45,884 nucleotides of DNA from Cupriavidus gilardii J11 (GTDB lineage: Bacteria; Pseudomonadota; Gammaproteobacteria; Burkholderiales; Burkholderiaceae), in contig NZ_VLJN01000023.1 of assembly GCF_007829435.1 (NCBI RefSeq), positions 8,802-54,685 on the forward strand, given 5' to 3'. Below are positions 32,703 to 38,865 of this stretch, in pieces. Each line of letters starts with the position of its first letter. Position 1 is the stretch's first letter. A program made the translations under genes and the position numbers. Below the pieces are notes generated by a model that saw only the letters and a list, made by a program, of their open reading frames with translations, was not told the DNA's origin and made no database searches.

Positions 32703-33716
32703 CTAGATCGGATTCGCCCAGCTCACCCGCGCGCCGTCACGCATGCAGGTGCGGATGGCGTCGATCTGCCCGAGAATCGGCGCGGGAACCTGCACCGCGC
32801 CGTCGATGACCTGACGGGTCCACGACGCCGTGGCCGCCAGATCGGTGCCGACTGGCAGTTGCGGCACATCGGCGATCGACCCCGGCATGGGGTCGACCAG
32901 CGTTCGCTGGTGACCATCGTGCAGCCAGTCGATGCGGCCCGCGCGGCGCGCGTCGGCGACGGGCTCCCCTTCGGTGCCGCGCATCAGCAGCACGTTGGCG
33001 GGCTCGTGCGAGAAGAACTCGGTCAGCGTCTCCCGGTATTCCGGATGCGTGTAGCTGTACAGTCGCAGCGCCTCGGCGGGCGTATGCGAGCCGACCGGCT
33101 GCAACATCTTCACGATCGTGTGCGAGGAGTTGCGCAGCCCAATGACCGTGCGCTTGTCCAGCAGCGCGGTCAGCGCGGGCGAGAGCACATCGATGGGCAA
33201 CGCGGCCACCGGGCCGTGCGGGCTGCCGCCGGCCAGGCGCTGCGACGCCTCGTCGGTGCTGGCGCAGGGTGCGATGCCCAGCGCCTCGAACAACATCATG
33301 CTGGTGATGCGGTCGTTGAAGCGGCGGGTGCCATGTACCAGCACGGGAATGCCTTCGCGCGCCAGCAGTAGCGCCAGCAGCGGCACCAGGTTCGGCTGCT
33401 TGCGGGCGCCGTTGTAGCTGGGGATCACCACCACCGGGCGCTCCGGCGGCATCGCGACGGGCAGGCAATGGGCATGCGCGGCTTCCAGCATGCCGGATAA
33501 CTCATGCGGCGCTTCGCCCTTGATGCGGTAGGCCATCAGCACCGCACCGAGTTCCACGTCGGACAGGCGTTTGTCCAGCATGGCGTCGAACAAGGCCCGC
33601 GCATCGTCGCGCTGCAGGGCGCGCGCGCCGTTCACGCCGCGGCCGATCTCCTTGATGAAGCGCGCGGCTGCGAACGGCGGTTGCGGCGAAGTGGGAGCGT
33701 TCTGGTTCGGTTCCAT
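32703..33716 (-). CDS. ybiB: DNA-binding protein YbiB (TrpD2-like, glycosyltransferase family 3)
   Basis: 337 residues with the anthranilate-phosphoribosyltransferase fold: N-terminal helical domain (AARFIKEIGRGVNGARALQ, LDKRLSDVELGAVLMAYRIKGE) and a nucleoside-phosphorylase-like core with VVIPSYNGARKQPNLVPLLA and LVHGTRRFNDRITSMML. In the studied E. coli YbiB, a TrpD2 protein, the role is nucleic-acid binding rather than tryptophan synthesis (established). ATG 33716 gives the family length; an upstream in-frame start (33779) is possible. It lies 91 bases after nrtD on the same strand, so it may be partly co-transcribed with the nitrate transporter genes. Confidence 0.86.
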   Translation of the reverse strand: MEPNQNAPTSPQPPFAAARFIKEIGRGVNGARALQRDDARALFDAMLDKRLSDVELGAVLMAYRIKGEAPHELSGMLEAAHAHCLPVAMPPERPVVVIPSYNGARKQPNLVPLLALLLAREGIPVLVHGTRRFNDRITSMMLFEALGIAPCASTDEASQRLAGGSPHGPVAALPIDVLSPALTALLDKRTVIGLRNSSHTIVKMLQPVGSHTPAEALRLYSYTHPEYRETLTEFFSHEPANVLLMRGTEGEPVADARRAGRIDWLHDGHQRTLVDPMPGSIADVPQLPVGTDLAATASWTRQVIDGAVQVPAPILGQIDAIRTCMRDGARVSWANPI

Positions 33717-33807
33717 GGGGCAGGGGAGAAGCGCTGGTTTTGCCGATGATAGCGTGATCGGGCCGGCGGCATCCGGCACCTGCCTTCACCGCATCCGGTC
33801 AACCCCG

Positions 33808-34611
33808 TCATGCCGCTTCCTTCAGCGCCGGACTGCGCTGCTTTCGGTGGAGGAAGTCGAGCACCGCGCCACGGCATGCCAGGTAGGTGGGATCCTCGAC
33901 CAGCGCCATGCGGTCGCGCGGCCGTGGCAACGGCACCGGCAGGATTTCACCGATGGTGGCCGCCGGGCCATTGGTCATCATCACGATGCGGTCGGCGAGC
34001 AGCACCGCCTCGTCGACATCGTGGGTGACCATCACCACGGTGCTGCGTGTCTTGGCGACGATCTTCAGCAACTCGTCCTGCAGATGGGCGCGCGTCAGCG
34101 CGTCCAGCGCGCCGAACGGCTCGTCCATCAGCAGCATCTTCGGCTCCATCGCCAGCGCGCGGGCAATGCCCACCCGCTGCTTCATGCCGCCGGAGATCTC
34201 GTGCGGATATTTGCCCTCGGCGTGCGACAGGCCAACCAGCTCCAGCGCCTCGCGCGTGCGGGCCTTCAGCTGCGCCCTGCTTTCCGAGCCGCCGAATACG
34301 CGTTCGACGCCAAGATGCACATTGTCGAAGCACGACAGCCACGGCAGCAGCGAATGGTTCTGGAACACCACGGCGCGGTCCGGGCCTGGACCCGCGATCT
34401 CGCGGCCCGCGCAGATCAACGTGCCGGAAGTCGGTGCGGTCAGGCCCGCCAGCAGATTCAGCAGCGTCGACTTGCCGCAGCCGGAATGGCCGATCAGCGC
34501 GATGAACTCTCCGGCCGCGATCGACAGACGGATATCGCGCAGCGCGACGAACGGCCCCTTGCGCGTCTTGAAGACCTGTCCAACGTCCTCGATGCTCACG
34601 AACTTATCCAT
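33808..34611 (-). CDS. nrtD: Nitrate/nitrite ABC transporter ATP-binding protein
   Basis: ATPase subunit of an NrtABD-type importer, 267 residues. Walker A GHSGCGKST, Q-loop FQNHSLLPW, signature ISGGMKQRVGIARAL, Walker B MLLMDEPFGALDAL and H-loop VTHDVDEA are all intact. A GGAGGAA box precedes ATG 34611; the frame extends 12 codons further without likeness. It is the last gene of the nrtA-nrtB-nrtD set, 36 bases after nrtB. Substrate assignment rests on the NrtA-type binding protein and on nasT; the taurine/sulfonate ATPases are close relatives. Confidence 0.9.
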   Translation of the reverse strand: MDKFVSIEDVGQVFKTRKGPFVALRDIRLSIAAGEFIALIGHSGCGKSTLLNLLAGLTAPTSGTLICAGREIAGPGPDRAVVFQNHSLLPWLSCFDNVHLGVERVFGGSESRAQLKARTREALELVGLSHAEGKYPHEISGGMKQRVGIARALAMEPKMLLMDEPFGALDALTRAHLQDELLKIVAKTRSTVVMVTHDVDEAVLLADRIVMMTNGPAATIGEILPVPLPRPRDRMALVEDPTYLACRGAVLDFLHRKQRSPALKEAA

Positions 34612-34647
34612 GCGTTCCTCCGATTGGTGCCGATTGGACGCATGCAA

Positions 34648-35532
34648 TCAGCCGTCATGGCTGAAGCGCCGTGCCAGCGCCAGCAGCGCGTGTTCGAGCA
34701 GCAGGCCGACGACGCCGATCACGAAGATCGCGATGACGATGTGCTCGACCTTCAGGTTGTTCCATTCATCCCACAGCCAGAAGCCGATGCCGGTGCCGCC
34801 GGTCAGCATCTCGGCGGCGACGATGACCAGCCAGGCCGTGCCGATCGACAGGCGCACGCCGGTCAGCATGTACGGCAGCACGGCGGGGAACAGCACCTTG
34901 GTGAAGACCTTCCATTCGGACAGGTCGAGCACGCGGGCGACGTTCAGGTAGTCCTGCGGCACGCGGCTGACACCGACCGCGGTGTTGATCACCATCGGCC
35001 AGATCGAGCAGATGAAGATGGCCCAGATCGCCGCCGGGTTTGCCGCCTTGAACAGCAGCAGGCCGATAGGCAGCCACGCCAGCGGGGACACCGGGCGCAG
35101 CAGGCTGATGATTGGCGCCGCCATCGCGTTCAGGAAGGCGAAACGACCCAGCGCGAAGCCGGCCGGGATGCCGATCAGCGCGGCTAGGCCAAAGCCGGCG
35201 CCAACGCGCGCGAGCGACGCCAGCACGTTCCAGCCCACGCCCTGGTCGTTGGGACCATTGCGATAGAACGGGTCCGCGAACAGCGGCAGCGCCGCGTCCC
35301 AGGTTGCGCCCGGCGTGGGCAGCGCCGGAATCCACGTGGCAATGCCATGCCACGCCAGCAGGAACAGCACGAAGCCGGCAAGTGGCGGGCACAGCTTCAG
35401 CATGCCGTGCGCCAGCGCATCGCGGCGGGCGGCGCGGCGCTCCTCGCGCTGCTGTTCCAGGGCGCGCCGCTGCGCGCGGGCCTGCCCATCGTCGGCGCCC
35501 ACATCGTCGCTGGATTGCGCGATCGCGTTCAT
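34648..35532 (-). CDS. nrtB: Nitrate/nitrite ABC transporter permease
   Basis: Inner-membrane permease, 294 residues. A charged N-terminal stretch rich in Arg/Glu/Gln (about 18-42) precedes about six helices. RPVSPLAWLPIGLLLFKAAN and the cytoplasmic EAA-type coupling loop DLSEWKVFTKVLFPAVLPYMLTG (its core begins near 198) are characteristic of NtrB permeases. AAGGAGATCGAT precedes ATG 35532. The open frame continues upstream into nrtA, but that is its shadow. It lies between nrtA and nrtD in one operon. Confidence 0.92.
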   Translation of the reverse strand: MNAIAQSSDDVGADDGQARAQRRALEQQREERRAARRDALAHGMLKLCPPLAGFVLFLLAWHGIATWIPALPTPGATWDAALPLFADPFYRNGPNDQGVGWNVLASLARVGAGFGLAALIGIPAGFALGRFAFLNAMAAPIISLLRPVSPLAWLPIGLLLFKAANPAAIWAIFICSIWPMVINTAVGVSRVPQDYLNVARVLDLSEWKVFTKVLFPAVLPYMLTGVRLSIGTAWLVIVAAEMLTGGTGIGFWLWDEWNNLKVEHIVIAIFVIGVVGLLLEHALLALARRFSHDG

Positions 35533-35627
35533 ATCGATCTCCTTGCGAGGCACGCGGCGCTCGTGGCCGCGGGCAGACGTTGAGAACAACGGGTGGGGCG
35601 GCGCTCCCGGGGGCGCCGCCCCTGGCA

Positions 35628-36947
35628 TCACACCTTGATCTTGAAGCCGTCGGCGTACGCCTTCGGGTCCTTGGTGGCATCCCACACCACGCCGTCCAGC
35701 AGCTTCGCGGTGCGGAAATCGCTCTTGGGCAACGGCACTTGCGCGGCCGTCGCGGCCTGCCTGTAGATGTCCACGCGATTGACCTTCTTCGCCACGGCGA
35801 GATAGTCCGGATGCTCCTTCAACAGGCCCCAACGCTTGTGCTGTGTCAGGAACCACATGCCGTCGGACAGGAAGGGATAGTTCGCGACGCCGTCCTGATA
35901 GAACTTCATCGCGTCGGCGTCGTCCCAGGTCTTGCCCAGGCCATTGGTGTAGCGGCCAAGCATGCGGTCGAGGATGATGTCCATGTCGGTGTTGACGTAG
36001 GACTTGGCCGCGATGGTCTCGGCGGTCTTGCGTCGGTTCGATACCGAAGCATCGATGAACTTCGACGCCTCCAGCACCGCGGCGACCATCGCGCGCGCGG
36101 TGTTGGGGTACTTCTGCACGAAGTCGGCGGTGGTGCCGAGCGTCTTCTCGGGGTGGTCCTTCCAGATGCCTTGCGTGGTTTCTGCGGTGAAGCCGATCCT
36201 GTCCGCGATGGCACGCGCGCCCCACGGTTCGCCCACGCAGAAGCCGTCCATATTGCCCACACGCATGTTCGCGACCATCTGCGGCGGCGGCACGGTGATG
36301 GCGCGCGCGTCCTGCATCGGATGGATGCCGTGCGCCGCGAGCCAGTAGTACAGCCACATCGCGTGCGTGCCGGTGGGGAAGGTCTGCGCGAAGGTGTAGT
36401 CGCGCTTCTCGCGGCTCATATGGGCGCGCAGCGACGCACCGTCGCGCACGCCTTTTTCCGCCAGCTTGGACGACAGCGAGATGGCCTGGCCGTTATGGTT
36501 CAGGCTCATCAGCACCGCCATGTCCTTCTTCGGCCCGCCGATGCCGAGCTGCACGCCGTAGATAAGGCCGTACAGCACGTGCGCGGCGTCGAGTTCGCCG
36601 TTGACCAGCTTGTCCCGCACGCCGGCCCACGACGCCTCCTTGGTCGGGGTGATCCTGATGCCGTACTTCTTGTCCAGGCCCAGCGTCGCGGCCATCACCA
36701 CCGATGCGCAATCGGTCAGCGGAATGAAGCCGATCTTCACCTCCGTCTTTTCCGGCGCATCGGAGCCGGCAGCCCATGCGCCCGCCTTCACCATCGGATC
36801 GACCAGCGTCATCACGCTGGCGCCGGCGATGGTCGCCATGGCCCGGCGGCGGCCCTGGCTGGCTGGCGCCGCGTCGGCGGAGCCGCCGGTAACGGGATCG
36901 ATGACCGCCGGGCGTCGCGGCTTGGCGGTGGACGGGCGAGAGGGCAT
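35628..36947 (-). CDS. nrtA: Nitrate/nitrite ABC transporter substrate-binding protein (NrtA/CmpA family)
   Basis: Periplasmic nitrate/nitrite receptor, 439 residues. The N-terminal region carries a run of three arginines (33-35, SQGRRRAMATIAGASVM), consistent with Tat export. The binding domain shows VKIGFIPLTDCASVVMAATL, ASWAGVRDKLVNGELDAAH, GIGGPKKDMAVLMSLNHNGQ, MRVGNMDGFCVGEPW and YPNTARAMVAAVLEASKF, all typical of NrtA. ATG 36947 is preferred because TTTGGAG lies 7 bases before it. The leader upstream contains an intrinsic terminator and ANTAR-type hairpins, so expression should need NasT antitermination. It heads nrtA-nrtB-nrtD. Confidence 0.92.
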   Translation of the reverse strand: MPSRPSTAKPRRPAVIDPVTGGSADAAPASQGRRRAMATIAGASVMTLVDPMVKAGAWAAGSDAPEKTEVKIGFIPLTDCASVVMAATLGLDKKYGIRITPTKEASWAGVRDKLVNGELDAAHVLYGLIYGVQLGIGGPKKDMAVLMSLNHNGQAISLSSKLAEKGVRDGASLRAHMSREKRDYTFAQTFPTGTHAMWLYYWLAAHGIHPMQDARAITVPPPQMVANMRVGNMDGFCVGEPWGARAIADRIGFTAETTQGIWKDHPEKTLGTTADFVQKYPNTARAMVAAVLEASKFIDASVSNRRKTAETIAAKSYVNTDMDIILDRMLGRYTNGLGKTWDDADAMKFYQDGVANYPFLSDGMWFLTQHKRWGLLKEHPDYLAVAKKVNRVDIYRQAATAAQVPLPKSDFRTAKLLDGVVWDATKDPKAYADGFKIKV

Positions 36948-36961
36948 GCAAGGCTCCAAAG

Positions 36962-37012
36962 AAAAAGCGTCCCGCCCCGTCGCGCGGGAAGCGCGCGACG
37001 GGGGCAGGACGC
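36962..37012 (-). terminator. Regulated intrinsic terminator in the nrtA leader
   Basis: On the minus strand a long G/C stem (37012-36967, arms beginning GCGTCC and ending GGGACGC) runs into TTTTTC, and the nrtA Shine-Dalgarno sequence follows at once. A terminator between a promoter and its first gene implies antitermination. Confidence 0.85.
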
Positions 37013-37020
37013 CGTTGTCC
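37007..37020 (-). promoter_or_regulatory. Third ANTAR-like hexaloop hairpin, overlapping the terminator
   Basis: Minus-strand GGAC-AACGGC-GTCC: a 4-bp stem with a six-base loop having A at 1 and G at 4. Its 3' arm (37010-37007) is also part of the terminator stem, so the two structures exclude one another. Confidence 0.5.
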
Positions 37021-37024
37021 GAAA

Positions 37025-37055
37025 GATGCCGGGGACCGTCGTTGGCCGCCGCATC
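37025..37055 (-). promoter_or_regulatory. ANTAR target hairpin 2 in the nrtA leader
   Basis: Minus-strand hairpin: an interrupted stem (GATGC...GCATC at the base) closes a six-base loop AACGAC (37043-37038), with A at position 1 and G at position 4 as ANTAR proteins require. Confidence 0.65.
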
Positions 37056-37063
37056 GAGTCATC

Positions 37064-37083
37064 GCCAGCCGCCGTTGGCTGGC
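37064..37083 (-). promoter_or_regulatory. ANTAR target hairpin 1 in the nrtA leader
   Basis: Minus-strand GCCAGCC and GGCTGGC form a perfect 7-bp stem around loop AACGGC (37076-37071), with A at 1 and G at 4. Confidence 0.7.
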
Positions 37084-37095
37084 ATCGGCGATAAC

Positions 37096-37110
37096 GCAAT
37101 CGGTGTGCCA
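37096..37110 (-). promoter_or_regulatory. Sigma-54 promoter of nrtABD
   Basis: Minus-strand TGGCAC-ACCGA-TTGC: GG and GC elements with exactly ten bases between them, fitting the -24/-12 consensus. The start site would be near 37084, giving a leader of about 137 bases. Confidence 0.75.
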
Positions 37111-37244
37111 TGCAGCAATGCTGGAGAGCGGTGCGGGGACGGACCGATCGCGGGGCGCGATTCCCGCCGGCGGCGCGCGGTGCACGAAGCGGGAGAACGG
37201 GGCATGACCGCTAAGGGTGCGGGGCGGCGCTGTTGTTGTGCGTT

Positions 37245-37259
37245 GCACCAGCGGGGTGC
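37245..37259. promoter_or_regulatory. NtrC-like upstream activator site
   Basis: GCACC-N5-GGTGC, matching the NtrC core, about 160 bases upstream of the predicted sigma-54 start site and just after the nasT stop. This is a usual place for an enhancer of this type. Confidence 0.6.
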
Positions 37260-37299
37260 GGGAGAGGGCAGTCACCGCCCGCCCGCGCCCCCGAAGAAA

Positions 37300-37944
37300 T
37301 CACCCCATCACGTCAATCACCCGCTGCGCCGCCTCCAGCAGCTTGATGCCCCGCTCCATCGCCATATTGCGCAGCCGCTTGTACGCCTCGTCCTCGCTCA
37401 TGCCCCGCTCCTTCATCAGCAGGCCCTTCGCGCGCTCGACCGTCTTGCGCTCGGCCAGCTTCAGCCGGGTGGCGTCCAGTTCTGCCCGCAGCGCCTGGTC
37501 CAGCTCGAAGCGCGCATAGGCGACGTCAAGCACGGTCTTTACGCGCTCGGCGCGCAGGCCGTCCACGATATACGCGGTGATGCCGGCCGACAGCGCGGCC
37601 TTGATCCGTTCGGCATCGTCGTTGTCGGTAAACAGCACGATGGGACGCGGCGCGTGCTGGGTCGACACGCAGACGTGCTCGACGGTATCGCGCGCCGCGG
37701 ATTCCGACGCGATGATGATCAGGTCCGGCTGGCGCGCTTCGATGGCGTCGGGCAGCGTGATGCCGGCGTCGACCGTCTCCACGTCATCGAAGCCGGCCGC
37801 CGACAGGCCCGCACGAATCGTCTCGACGTTGAGCGGATCGGCGTCCAGCGGGTCGCGCACGAGCAGGATGCGCAGCGCACGGGGCGCGGCGGGCGGGGCC
37901 GTCGTGGTGGCAGGGGCTTCGGAGGGGACGCGACGTCGGTTCAT
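37300..37944 (-). CDS. nasT: ANTAR-domain antiterminator NasT
   Basis: RNA-binding antiterminator for nitrate assimilation genes, 214 residues. The N-terminal receiver-like domain (about 24-140, starting ALRILLVRDPLDADPLN) lacks the phospho-acceptor aspartate: PDLIIIASESA has A79 where receivers have D. The C-terminal ANTAR domain (about 155-210) reads ERAKGLLMKERGMSEDEAYK followed by LRNMAMERGIKLLEAAQRVI. ATG 37944 is chosen; the upstream in-frame codon is TTG. The gene lies directly upstream of nrtABD on the same strand, whose leader has matching hexaloop hairpins. Known partners are nitrate-sensing NasS proteins; no separate nasS is in the window. Confidence 0.92.
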   Translation of the reverse strand: MNRRRVPSEAPATTTAPPAAPRALRILLVRDPLDADPLNVETIRAGLSAAGFDDVETVDAGITLPDAIEARQPDLIIIASESAARDTVEHVCVSTQHAPRPIVLFTDNDDAERIKAALSAGITAYIVDGLRAERVKTVLDVAYARFELDQALRAELDATRLKLAERKTVERAKGLLMKERGMSEDEAYKRLRNMAMERGIKLLEAAQRVIDVMG

Positions 37945-38163
37945 GGCATTGGCGGGAGGTCGGACGGTTTTATGCAAGATTCAAGCCGGCCCCACGTGCG
38001 CCAGGCTGCCTCGCGCGGCGCGACGGGTGTATGCTGATGCCCTGCCGCGGCGGCTTGGAGCAGCCACGCGGCTCCGGTCGCGACCCGTGGAATCCATCGA
38101 TCCACGGAGCCACGACGGCGGCCGGCAAACCCCGATTCCCATACCGACAAGCTGGAGAGATGC

Positions 38164-38865
38164 ATGACCGAGTTCGTTTTCACCCCGCCCGCGCCCGTTG
38201 GCGTGCCGGTGCGCGGCAGCAGCGCGCGCTTCCCGGTGCGGCGCGTCTATTGCGTCGGCCGCAACTACGCCGCGCACGCGCGTGAAATGGGCTCGGACCC
38301 CGACCGCGAACCGCCGTTCTTCTTCTGCAAGCCCGCCGATGCGGTCAGCTATGTCGCCGACGGCTCCGAAGGCGCCTTTCCCTATCCGCCCGGCAGCGGC
38401 AACGTGCACTACGAGGTCGAGATGGTGGTCGCGATCGGCAAGGGCGGTCGCGATATCCCGGTCGACCAGGCGGCCTCGCATGTGTTCGGCTACGCCATCG
38501 GCCTGGACATGACGCGCCGCGACCTGCAGAACGAATCGAAGAAAACCGGCCGTCCGTGGGAAACCGGCAAGGCCTTCGACCACTCCGCGCCGATCGGTCC
38601 GATCGTGCCGGTGGAGGCCATCGGCCATCCGCAGCGTGGTGCCGTGACGCTGGCCGTCAACGGCGCCGAAAAGCAGCGCGGAGACCTGTCTGACCTGATC
38701 TGGTCGGTGCCCGAGATGGTGGCGTACCTGTCGCGCCTGTTCGAGCTGCAGCCGGGCGACCTTATCTACAGCGGCACGCCCGAGGGCGTCGGCCCGGTGG
38801 TCCGGGGCGACCGCATGGAATGCGCGATCGAGGGGCTGGGCGAGCTCGTCGTCAAGGTGGTGTAA
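38164..38865 (+). CDS. Fumarylacetoacetate hydrolase family protein (fumarylpyruvate hydrolase-like)
   Basis: 233 residues, the short form of the FAH fold. VYCVGRNYAAHAREMGSDP, the metal-binding ExE in VHYEVEMVVAIG, GYAIGLDMTRRDLQNESKK and LIYSGTPEGVGPV are intact. This size class cleaves acylpyruvates such as fumarylpyruvate, the end of the gentisate pathway, rather than fumarylacetoacetate itself. The isomerase gene four bases downstream supports this; the gentisate dioxygenase is not in the window. A GGAGAG box precedes ATG 38164. It is divergent from nasT across 219 bases in which I see no clear operator. Confidence 0.9.
   Translation: MTEFVFTPPAPVGVPVRGSSARFPVRRVYCVGRNYAAHAREMGSDPDREPPFFFCKPADAVSYVADGSEGAFPYPPGSGNVHYEVEMVVAIGKGGRDIPVDQAASHVFGYAIGLDMTRRDLQNESKKTGRPWETGKAFDHSAPIGPIVPVEAIGHPQRGAVTLAVNGAEKQRGDLSDLIWSVPEMVAYLSRLFELQPGDLIYSGTPEGVGPVVRGDRMECAIEGLGELVVKVV

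Follow-up and report, generated by a model that had tools for sequence, protein, structure and literature searches.

The window analysed here, a stretch of 45,884 nucleotides from Cupriavidus gilardii J11 (contig NZ_VLJN01000023.1), contains a run of minus-strand genes in which nasT, encoding an ANTAR protein, is followed by nitrate transport genes. The features that matter for the argument are given below in their minus-strand order.

37300 to 37977, minus strand: nasT (ANTAR match at 4.2e-19, over the cut-off; Response_reg match at 7.5e-5, below the cut-off)
37245 to 37259, minus strand: NtrC-like site GCACC-N5-GGTGC, with 10 of 10 consensus letters
37096 to 37110, minus strand: sigma54 -24/-12 promoter motif TGGCAC-N5-TTGC (TGGCACACCGATTGC), with an inferred +1 near 37084
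37063 to 37084, minus strand: first hairpin (HP1, or P1, the recruitment hairpin), eight pairs (seven plus one U-G), loop AACGGC at 37076-37071
37025 to 37055, minus strand: middle hairpin (HP2), predicted in folds, loop AACGAC at 37043-37038
37007 to 37020, minus strand: predicted third hairpin (HP3, or P2, the antiterminator hairpin), GGAC-AACGGC-GUCC, loop at 37016-37011
36967 to 37013, minus strand: intrinsic terminator stem of about 47 bases, predicted to be mutually exclusive with P2
36962 to 36966, minus strand: U-run of the terminator, from the sequence and a terminator scan
36954 to 36957, minus strand: GGAG ribosome-binding site of nrtA, from the sequence, with the ATG at 36947
35628 to 36947, minus strand: nrtA, nitrate-type binding protein (NMT1_2, 2.2e-103), with a Tat-like signal by eye
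34648 to 35530, minus strand: nrtB, nitrate ABC permease, start approximate (TIGR01183, 239.3 bits, over the cut-off)
33808 to 34647, minus strand: nrtD, nitrate ABC ATPase (TIGR01184, 338.7 bits, over the cut-off)
32703 to 33779, minus strand: ybiB, last gene of the run (NF006005, 4.4e-128)

NasT is the sole ANTAR match in the genome; its receiver match reaches 23.3 bits at a cut-off of 30.2, and 33 of its 35 named relatives at 77-92% identity belong to Cupriavidus. An earlier note on this DNA had described two hairpins with the loops AACGGC and AACGAC, a strong terminator ending just upstream of the nrtA ribosome-binding site and nasT as the next upstream gene on the same strand, and all of these were confirmed at the positions listed above. 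Two long plus-strand open frames (35112-37094 and 36601-38037) run antisense through the leader; in DNA as GC-rich as this, they do not speak for genes.

Between nasT and nrtA, the minus strand presents the NtrC-like site, the sigma54 motif, HP1, HP2, HP3 overlapping the terminator and finally GGAG. All three hexaloops have A at position 1 and G at position 4 (A1/G4) and a C-G closing pair, and they are packed within 70 nt. The linkers measure 7 nt between HP1 and HP2 and 4 nt between HP2 and P2, and of the 42 nt that separate HP1 from P2, 31 lie inside the middle hairpin. The GUCC 3' arm of HP3 doubles as the foot of the terminator, and because this arm is common to both, HP3 and the terminator are mutually exclusive by predicted pairing. 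It is this third hexaloop hairpin, set within the terminator's 5' foot, that the list of two hairpins had missed. HP1 and HP2 alone were rejected as an antiterminator, since neither reaches the terminator and no exclusion by pairing would result. The P2 of the classical ANTAR antiterminator is the third hairpin and its P1 is HP1; these two form the constant pair, and HP2, which the earlier note had counted as half of the working pair, is a variable middle hairpin. What stood of that proposal is an ANTAR-type leader, with NasT as its likely reader and nrtABD under predicted antitermination, and what fell is the two-hairpin antiterminator. The analysis is firm on the leader of three hairpins, whose P2 lies on the terminator foot, on its sigma54 motif and on a sister leader before narK, described below.

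The minus-strand leader, for which a folding analysis had been proposed, folds far better than its shuffles (z -4.68). Taken alone, HP1 (z -3.90) stands out, and so does the terminator, with an energy of -44.9 kcal/mol (z -6.82) that none of 200 shuffles equals; the energies of HP2 (z -0.78, 35 of 200 shuffles as good) and of P2 (z -0.92, 28 of 200), each taken alone, are not above those of shuffles. Four truncated leaders were folded: the best folds of those ending at 37006, 36996 and 36976 contain all three hairpins, P2 is missing from the best fold of the one ending at 36986 and likewise from the centroid at 36996, and in the full-length RNA HP3 is displaced by the terminator. Among 4000 dinucleotide-preserving shuffles of 37084-36962, in which A1/G4 hexaloop stems of at least four pairs were counted, 497 contained one such stem, 25 contained two and none contained three. 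The three hairpins of the leader are also the only AACGGC or AACGAC hairpins with at least four pairs on either strand of the window.

Conservation was first surveyed at 30 nasT loci, 18 from the same genus and 12 from the genus g24, which we take to be Ralstonia-like (genera g9, g10 and g11, mentioned below, are presumably Burkholderia-like). The HP3 motif with a sigma54 motif upstream occurs in 26 of the 30 loci, and L025 also has both; L005 and L007 are without the HP3 motif and L031 stops short of it. The g24 leaders have two hexaloops instead of three. As a separate feature, five g24 loci (L023, L026, L029, L031 and L032) carry degenerate arrays of a repeat of about 40 nt (GCCGAGTTCCGAACCTCAACCGCCGAGCTAAAAGCC...), varying in length, upstream of the leader between nasT and nrtA.

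Across 16 leaders of the genus, seven of the ten HP2 pairs are changed on both sides, at a shuffled mean of 3.9 for the structure (8 of 500 shuffles as high), and 82.3% of the cells of HP2 and HP3 are paired vs 21-52% when the stems are slid. The four core pairs of HP3 are invariant in this set, and further pair types show no excess over shuffles in the 16-leader alignment (265 of 500 as high). A covariance model of HP2 and HP3 (R1) was built from 16 seeds including the window leader, so that seed scores such as the 47.6 bits of the window leader are high by construction; elsewhere in the genome the model reaches at most 21.7 bits. The g24 leaders outside the seed set reach 37 bits (E 3e-7). 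Over 200 genomes of the family, 105 contain an R1 match at E 0.01 or better, the weak ones being mostly candidates. Thirteen matches outside the seed set score above 31 bits; 12 of them, read at their loci, lie at nrtA leaders (11 in g24, one in G069), and the thirteenth, G158:C92, is a candidate. The weak matches L094, L095, L097 and L115-L120 were dropped, being without leader anatomy by eye.

A search for the exact 14-mer of P2, GGACAACGGCGTCC, which by its design holds P2 constant and passes over variants, gave 122 occurrences in 59 of 60 genus genomes, compared with 32 for a reversed-pattern control. Classed by start-codon motifs, and with one occurrence in G045 left out, 121 of them fall into 52 nrtA leaders, 57 narK leaders, 4 leaders of a formate/nitrite-type transporter and 8 background occurrences. 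Two further genomes missed by the 14-mer, G216 and G218, contain full nrtA leaders with the P2 loop AACGAC. The nrtA leader is present in 52 of the 55 NasT-bearing Cupriavidus genomes. All these sequences are related, so that conservation counts are not independent. P1 was first picked with a preference for A1/G4, and the search was repeated with letters ignored: the loop of the longest stem at the P1 position is then A1/G4 in 52 of 52 nrtA and 47 of 57 narK leaders, and with one mismatch allowed in 50 of 52 and 57 of 57, respectively. The loops of P1 and P2 are 58-64 nt apart in the 47 narK leaders scored, 59-63 nt in 38 of 51 nrtA leaders and 72-100 nt in the other 13.

For stem counts across genera the MAFFT alignment (A2), which put the loops out of register, was set aside in favour of loop-anchored stems. 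When each distinct stem is counted once, both sides are changed in 9 cells for the nrtA P1, 14 for the narK P1 and 43 for the middle stem, and these figures fall to 0-2, 0-6 and 2-14, respectively, when the stems are slid by one or two. In the loop-anchored stems 85-89% of the cells are paired, compared with 7-48% when slid, a share inflated for the 27 distinct middle stems, which were anchored at their best pairing. CG is the first pair, without exception, in the 14 and 17 distinct P1 stems and the 27 distinct middle stems. In the related leaders, whose alignment the earlier note had called for, P1 and middle stems covary, and the constant elements are P1 and P2. Near a T-run, a foot able to pair with the 3' arm of P2 is found in 109 of 109 leaders, GGAC being exact in 96, in a permissive test that 2962 of 5450 shuffled controls pass too. 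In another genus, L048 shows a three-way change, GAAC/GTTC/GAAC, in the P2 arms and the terminator foot.

Upstream of the hairpins, the -24 GG and -12 GC of a sigma54-type promoter are found at their fixed spacing, at motif level. The site at 37110-37096 was called with what we take to be the sigma54 -24/-12 consensus, and that at 37259-37245 with what we take to be the NtrC consensus. The relaxed sigma54 motif is present at all 52 nrtA and all 57 narK leaders and begins 32-36 nt before the P1 loop wherever P1 was scored. A sigma70 promoter scan of 36800-38300 found none. Because the sigma54 promoter would put +1 at HP1, the leader need not be transcribed from nasT, and an obligatory read-through from nasT was rejected, the motif sitting just before HP1. 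The NtrC-like site, whose position varies among relatives, is suggestive only: the best match has 9 or 10 of 10 letters in 41 of 52 nrtA upstream regions, at a mean of 7.3 in resampled controls.

The genome of J11 contains a second leader of this kind (G000:C4:23317-23367; L114, L055), immediately in front of narK, with nirB 1.4 kb downstream. It is composed of a sigma54 motif, GGGCC-AACGGC-GGCCC, a non-ANTAR middle hairpin, GGAC-AACGGC-GUCC and a terminator. Its R1 score of 20.0 bits lies within background, and it was identified because of its anatomy and exact P2 motif, not by model score. A sub-threshold match of this leader to SR6_antitoxin and other weak Rfam matches were taken as chance. 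In four genus genomes (L199, L209, L215, L228), the P2 motif also stands before a gene starting MAYLAPAEFV or MAYLAPTEFV, which we take to be a formate/nitrite transporter; the sigma54 motif was not found at these four loci.

A NasT ortholog is encoded in 55 of the 60 genus genomes. In four others (G002, G069, G089 and G184) the only ANTAR-type match is a different one, within a long frame (468-496 residues); one genome, 54% complete, has no ANTAR match. The G069 protein combines NIT and ANTAR domains, the plan of NasR, and aligns at 60-79% with the long ANTAR proteins of G184, G002 and G213. NasR-type proteins replace NasT in G069, G002 and G184, and probably in G089. The narK leader is kept in all four of these genomes, and the nrtA leader also in G069 and G002, which indicates that two sensor designs, NasT and NasR, operate on the same RNA leaders. 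In G213 a NasR-type protein occurs alongside a NasT ortholog. Two nasT matches, those of G223 and of G236:C9 (L253, L252), fall into two pieces, either genuinely or through sequencing error; a further and longer match of G236 lies at C6.

Comparison with known systems places the leader in familiar company. The ANTAR dual hairpin has its P2 on the terminator foot (PMC3369931), and NasR SELEX prefers A1/G4 with a C-G closing pair (PMC7496416). EutV/eutP, NasR/nasF and AmiR/amiE share with the window leader the A1/G4 hexaloops closed by C-G, a P2 that is the 5' foot of the terminator and nitrogen genes downstream (PMC3369931, PMC7496416); in the window, two six-base A1/G4 loops with C-G closure, P2 on the terminator base and an encoded ANTAR protein are all found. 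The Klebsiella NasR (NIT-ANTAR)/nasF leader follows the same RNA logic, although the window genome has NasT and not NasR. The NasS-NasT systems (Paracoccus nas, Bradyrhizobium nosR) also combine NasT with nitrate-related genes and a hairpin leader before the first gene; the window differs in that its target includes a nitrate ABC transporter and no separate NasS was found. In Paracoccus, NasT binds the nasA leader and nitrate dissociates NasS-NasT (PMC3795266), and mutation of hairpin HI severely reduces expression (PMC5424462). Unlike the dual-hexaloop systems, the window has three hexaloops, and its P1 and P2 are separated by 42 nt with a bridging hairpin instead of a linker of 5-12 nt. It is well supported that this leader belongs to a known switch type, departing from it slightly in the third loop and the 42-nt distance.

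Taken together, the predicted structure and the comparisons favour a sigma54-driven, nitrate-responsive ANTAR antitermination leader, a reading to which a probability of roughly 0.88 may be given. From these data we infer the binding of NasT, the direction of control, the nitrate signal, the start site and the role of the middle loop. RNA polymerase would start near 37084, and P1 and the middle hairpin would emerge first, followed by P2. If free NasT is lacking, the terminator would take the 3' arm of P2 and transcription would halt before nrtA. Nitrate or nitrite would free NasT, which would be recruited to P1, move to the emerging P2 and hold it, so that the terminator is blocked and nrtABD-ybiB can be made. 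The stretch from P1 to P2 would be folded away by the middle hairpin, whose ANTAR loop in nrtA leaders would probably act as a relay or as a third place for NasT to dock. Such bridging must be assumed because 42 nt exceed natural linkers: those of EutV measure 5-12 nt, with induction already reduced at 3 or 14 nt (PMC3369931), and an additional 20 nt between the hairpins abolished antitermination (PMC8934654). The successive steps resemble those described for EutV, in which single hexaloops are recognized and bound in succession, P1 recruiting and P2 antiterminating (PMC8934654). Leaders of this kind may not act as modelled in every case: in Bradyrhizobium, the expression of narK genes carrying predicted NasT hairpins went up and not down when nasT was missing (PMC6759348).

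The middle hexaloop was chosen as the best hexaloop hairpin with letters ignored. In the nrtA leaders of NasT genomes it is A1/G4 in 49 of 50 (the exception, G152, has GACGAC), and with G216 and G218 in 51 of 52; loop positions 5 and 6 vary. It is ANTAR-type in none of 57 narK leaders and in neither nrtA leader of the NasR genomes G069 and G002. The G017 leader, from another genus, apparently has an ANTAR-type middle loop too, by eye. As the sequences are related, the A1/G4 middle loop is to be taken as evidence of constraint and not as a probability. The middle hairpin probably bridges P1 to P2 and serves as a third NasT site. Two other roles were considered. HP2 and P2 might be the working ANTAR pair, HP1 being an extra recruitment or 5'-stabilising hairpin; the 4-nt gap between them is near known linkers, and their loop spacing of 24-27 in the scored same-genus leaders resembles the 22 of the two-hairpin leaders of g24. 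This is unlikely, however, for the middle loop is non-ANTAR in all 57 narK and two NasR-genome nrtA leaders while P1 and P2 are kept, and the ANTAR loops of the organism's own narK leader are P1 and P2 only. Alternatively, the middle loop might be a decoy, NasT on HP1 and HP2 leaving P2 free and damping nrtA relative to narK. The restriction of the ANTAR-type middle loop to nrtA leaders and the possibility that nrtA encodes NasT's own restrainer would suit this idea, but EutV is reported to contact hexaloops one by one, which favours a relay (PMC8934654), and a decoy appears quite improbable.

At the gathering score, the Rfam scan found no family in the window or in 13 related loci. The narK RNA family (RF03032) matches the window with its full model at 37109-37046 (26.8 bits, E 0.0012; gathering score 43.2) and the organism's own narK leader at 21.3 bits; membership of the window leader was rejected on this cut-off, and it is best described as a sub-threshold relative. 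Both the RF03032 consensus and the window leader have sigma54-like letters, a P1 with the loop AACGGC and a potential P2 hexaloop, which in the consensus is a 3' tail, CGAC-AAAGAC-GUCG, marked unpaired. The Rfam model differs in having no middle hairpin and no P2 annotated as paired. Among 200 family genomes, 35 matched RF03032 at E 0.01 or better, none over the cut-off, and many of the matches coincide with the leaders described here. In 369 genomes of the class, six matches were obtained at 1e-4 or better, two of them over the cut-off. All six have two A1/G4 hexaloops, the second of which (AAAGGC) runs by eye into a U-tailed stem, with a mismatch in L345. The strict sigma54 pattern is found in one of the six; inspected by eye, the other five show TGGCA-N6-NTGC. 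L342 is flanked by a nasT-type gene and an MFS transporter, the gene before L345 encodes a protein that is NasR-like by eye, and the one after L346 is a putative nrtA-type gene. Judged from this anatomy, narK RNA looks like an ANTAR leader plus its promoter, with P2 left unpaired in the model. In a full-text literature search on ANTAR, NasT and narK RNA leaders no account of the nrtA leader was found; the 2017 paper that is reportedly the source of narK RNA was outside the scope of that search. A plain attenuator or a ligand-binding RNA, with the adjacency of NasT incidental, would agree with the cataloguing of RF03032 only as a cis-regulatory RNA and with the intrinsic terminator. Yet the paired hexaloops in all six class-wide matches, the ANTAR gene adjoining L342 and, by eye, L345, and the fact that 59 of 60 genus genomes contain either a NasT ortholog (55 genomes) or some other ANTAR-type match (four) make it very improbable.

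How NasT would be switched is a more delicate matter. A genome search with NrtA at E 0.001 matched only NrtA itself, so that a separate NasS was not found and the one NrtA/NasS-type protein is NrtA with its Tat-like signal. In the Burkholderia-like genera, nasT is followed by a NasS-like binding protein without visible signal, and it is the position of this gene that nrtA occupies in the window. Five genomes are without an nrtB ortholog (matches of 23-35% identity only), namely the genus NasT genomes G115, G079 and G233 and, from other genera, G038 (70% complete) and G016. In all five the binding protein remains beside nasT. The leader is gone in G115 and G079, an eroded P2 and terminator are left by eye in G233, and the P2 motif was not found in G038 and G016. 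The hydrophobicity of the signal core is 0.94 in G079, 1.14 in G233 and 0.52 in G038 vs 1.79-2.12 for the other 11 members of the genus that were compared; in G115 it is 1.61, but the core there has been rewritten to include charged and polar residues. The NasR-type genomes G184 and G089, which have no nrtB ortholog, are also without an nrtA ortholog. Genomes lacking nrtB thus keep the binding protein with NasT and lose it with NasR, which implies that it follows NasT and not the transporter. On sequence grounds this argues for, and is not proof of, NrtA doubling as NasS; the tree of 31 binding proteins has no sure root. In the five nrtB-less genomes, ybiB (32703-33779 in the window) keeps its place after the nasT-nrtA run, suggesting a possible tie to nitrate assimilation.

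It is conceivable that NasT is switched by means other than NrtA, such as phosphorylation or an undetected NasS. The Tat-like signal seen by eye in the window's NrtA and the conjectural nature of an NrtA-NasT contact lend weight to this option, whose chances are not far short of even; against it stand the failure to find a second NrtA/NasS-type protein in the genome and the binding protein beside nasT in five nrtB-less genomes but absent from two NasR-type ones. The middle loop as a relay and NrtA as a sensor are both hypotheses. The full proposal, in which NasT passes from P1 over the ANTAR middle loop to P2, NrtA is both periplasmic transporter subunit and cytoplasmic NasS, and narK RNA is the same kind of leader, common to NasT and NasR, is tentative and, as a whole, rather doubtful.

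With the additions made here, the two hairpins described earlier become a complete testable switch consisting of promoter, recruitment hairpin, bridge, antiterminator and terminator. The ANTAR middle loop of nrtA leaders vs the non-ANTAR one of narK leaders in the same genomes offers a natural test of successive hexaloop binding, and a function is suggested for the catalogued RNA family narK RNA. The binding protein of the transporter, NrtA, may also be a nitrate sensor; if this is true, the nrtA leader switch would feed back on its own sensor.
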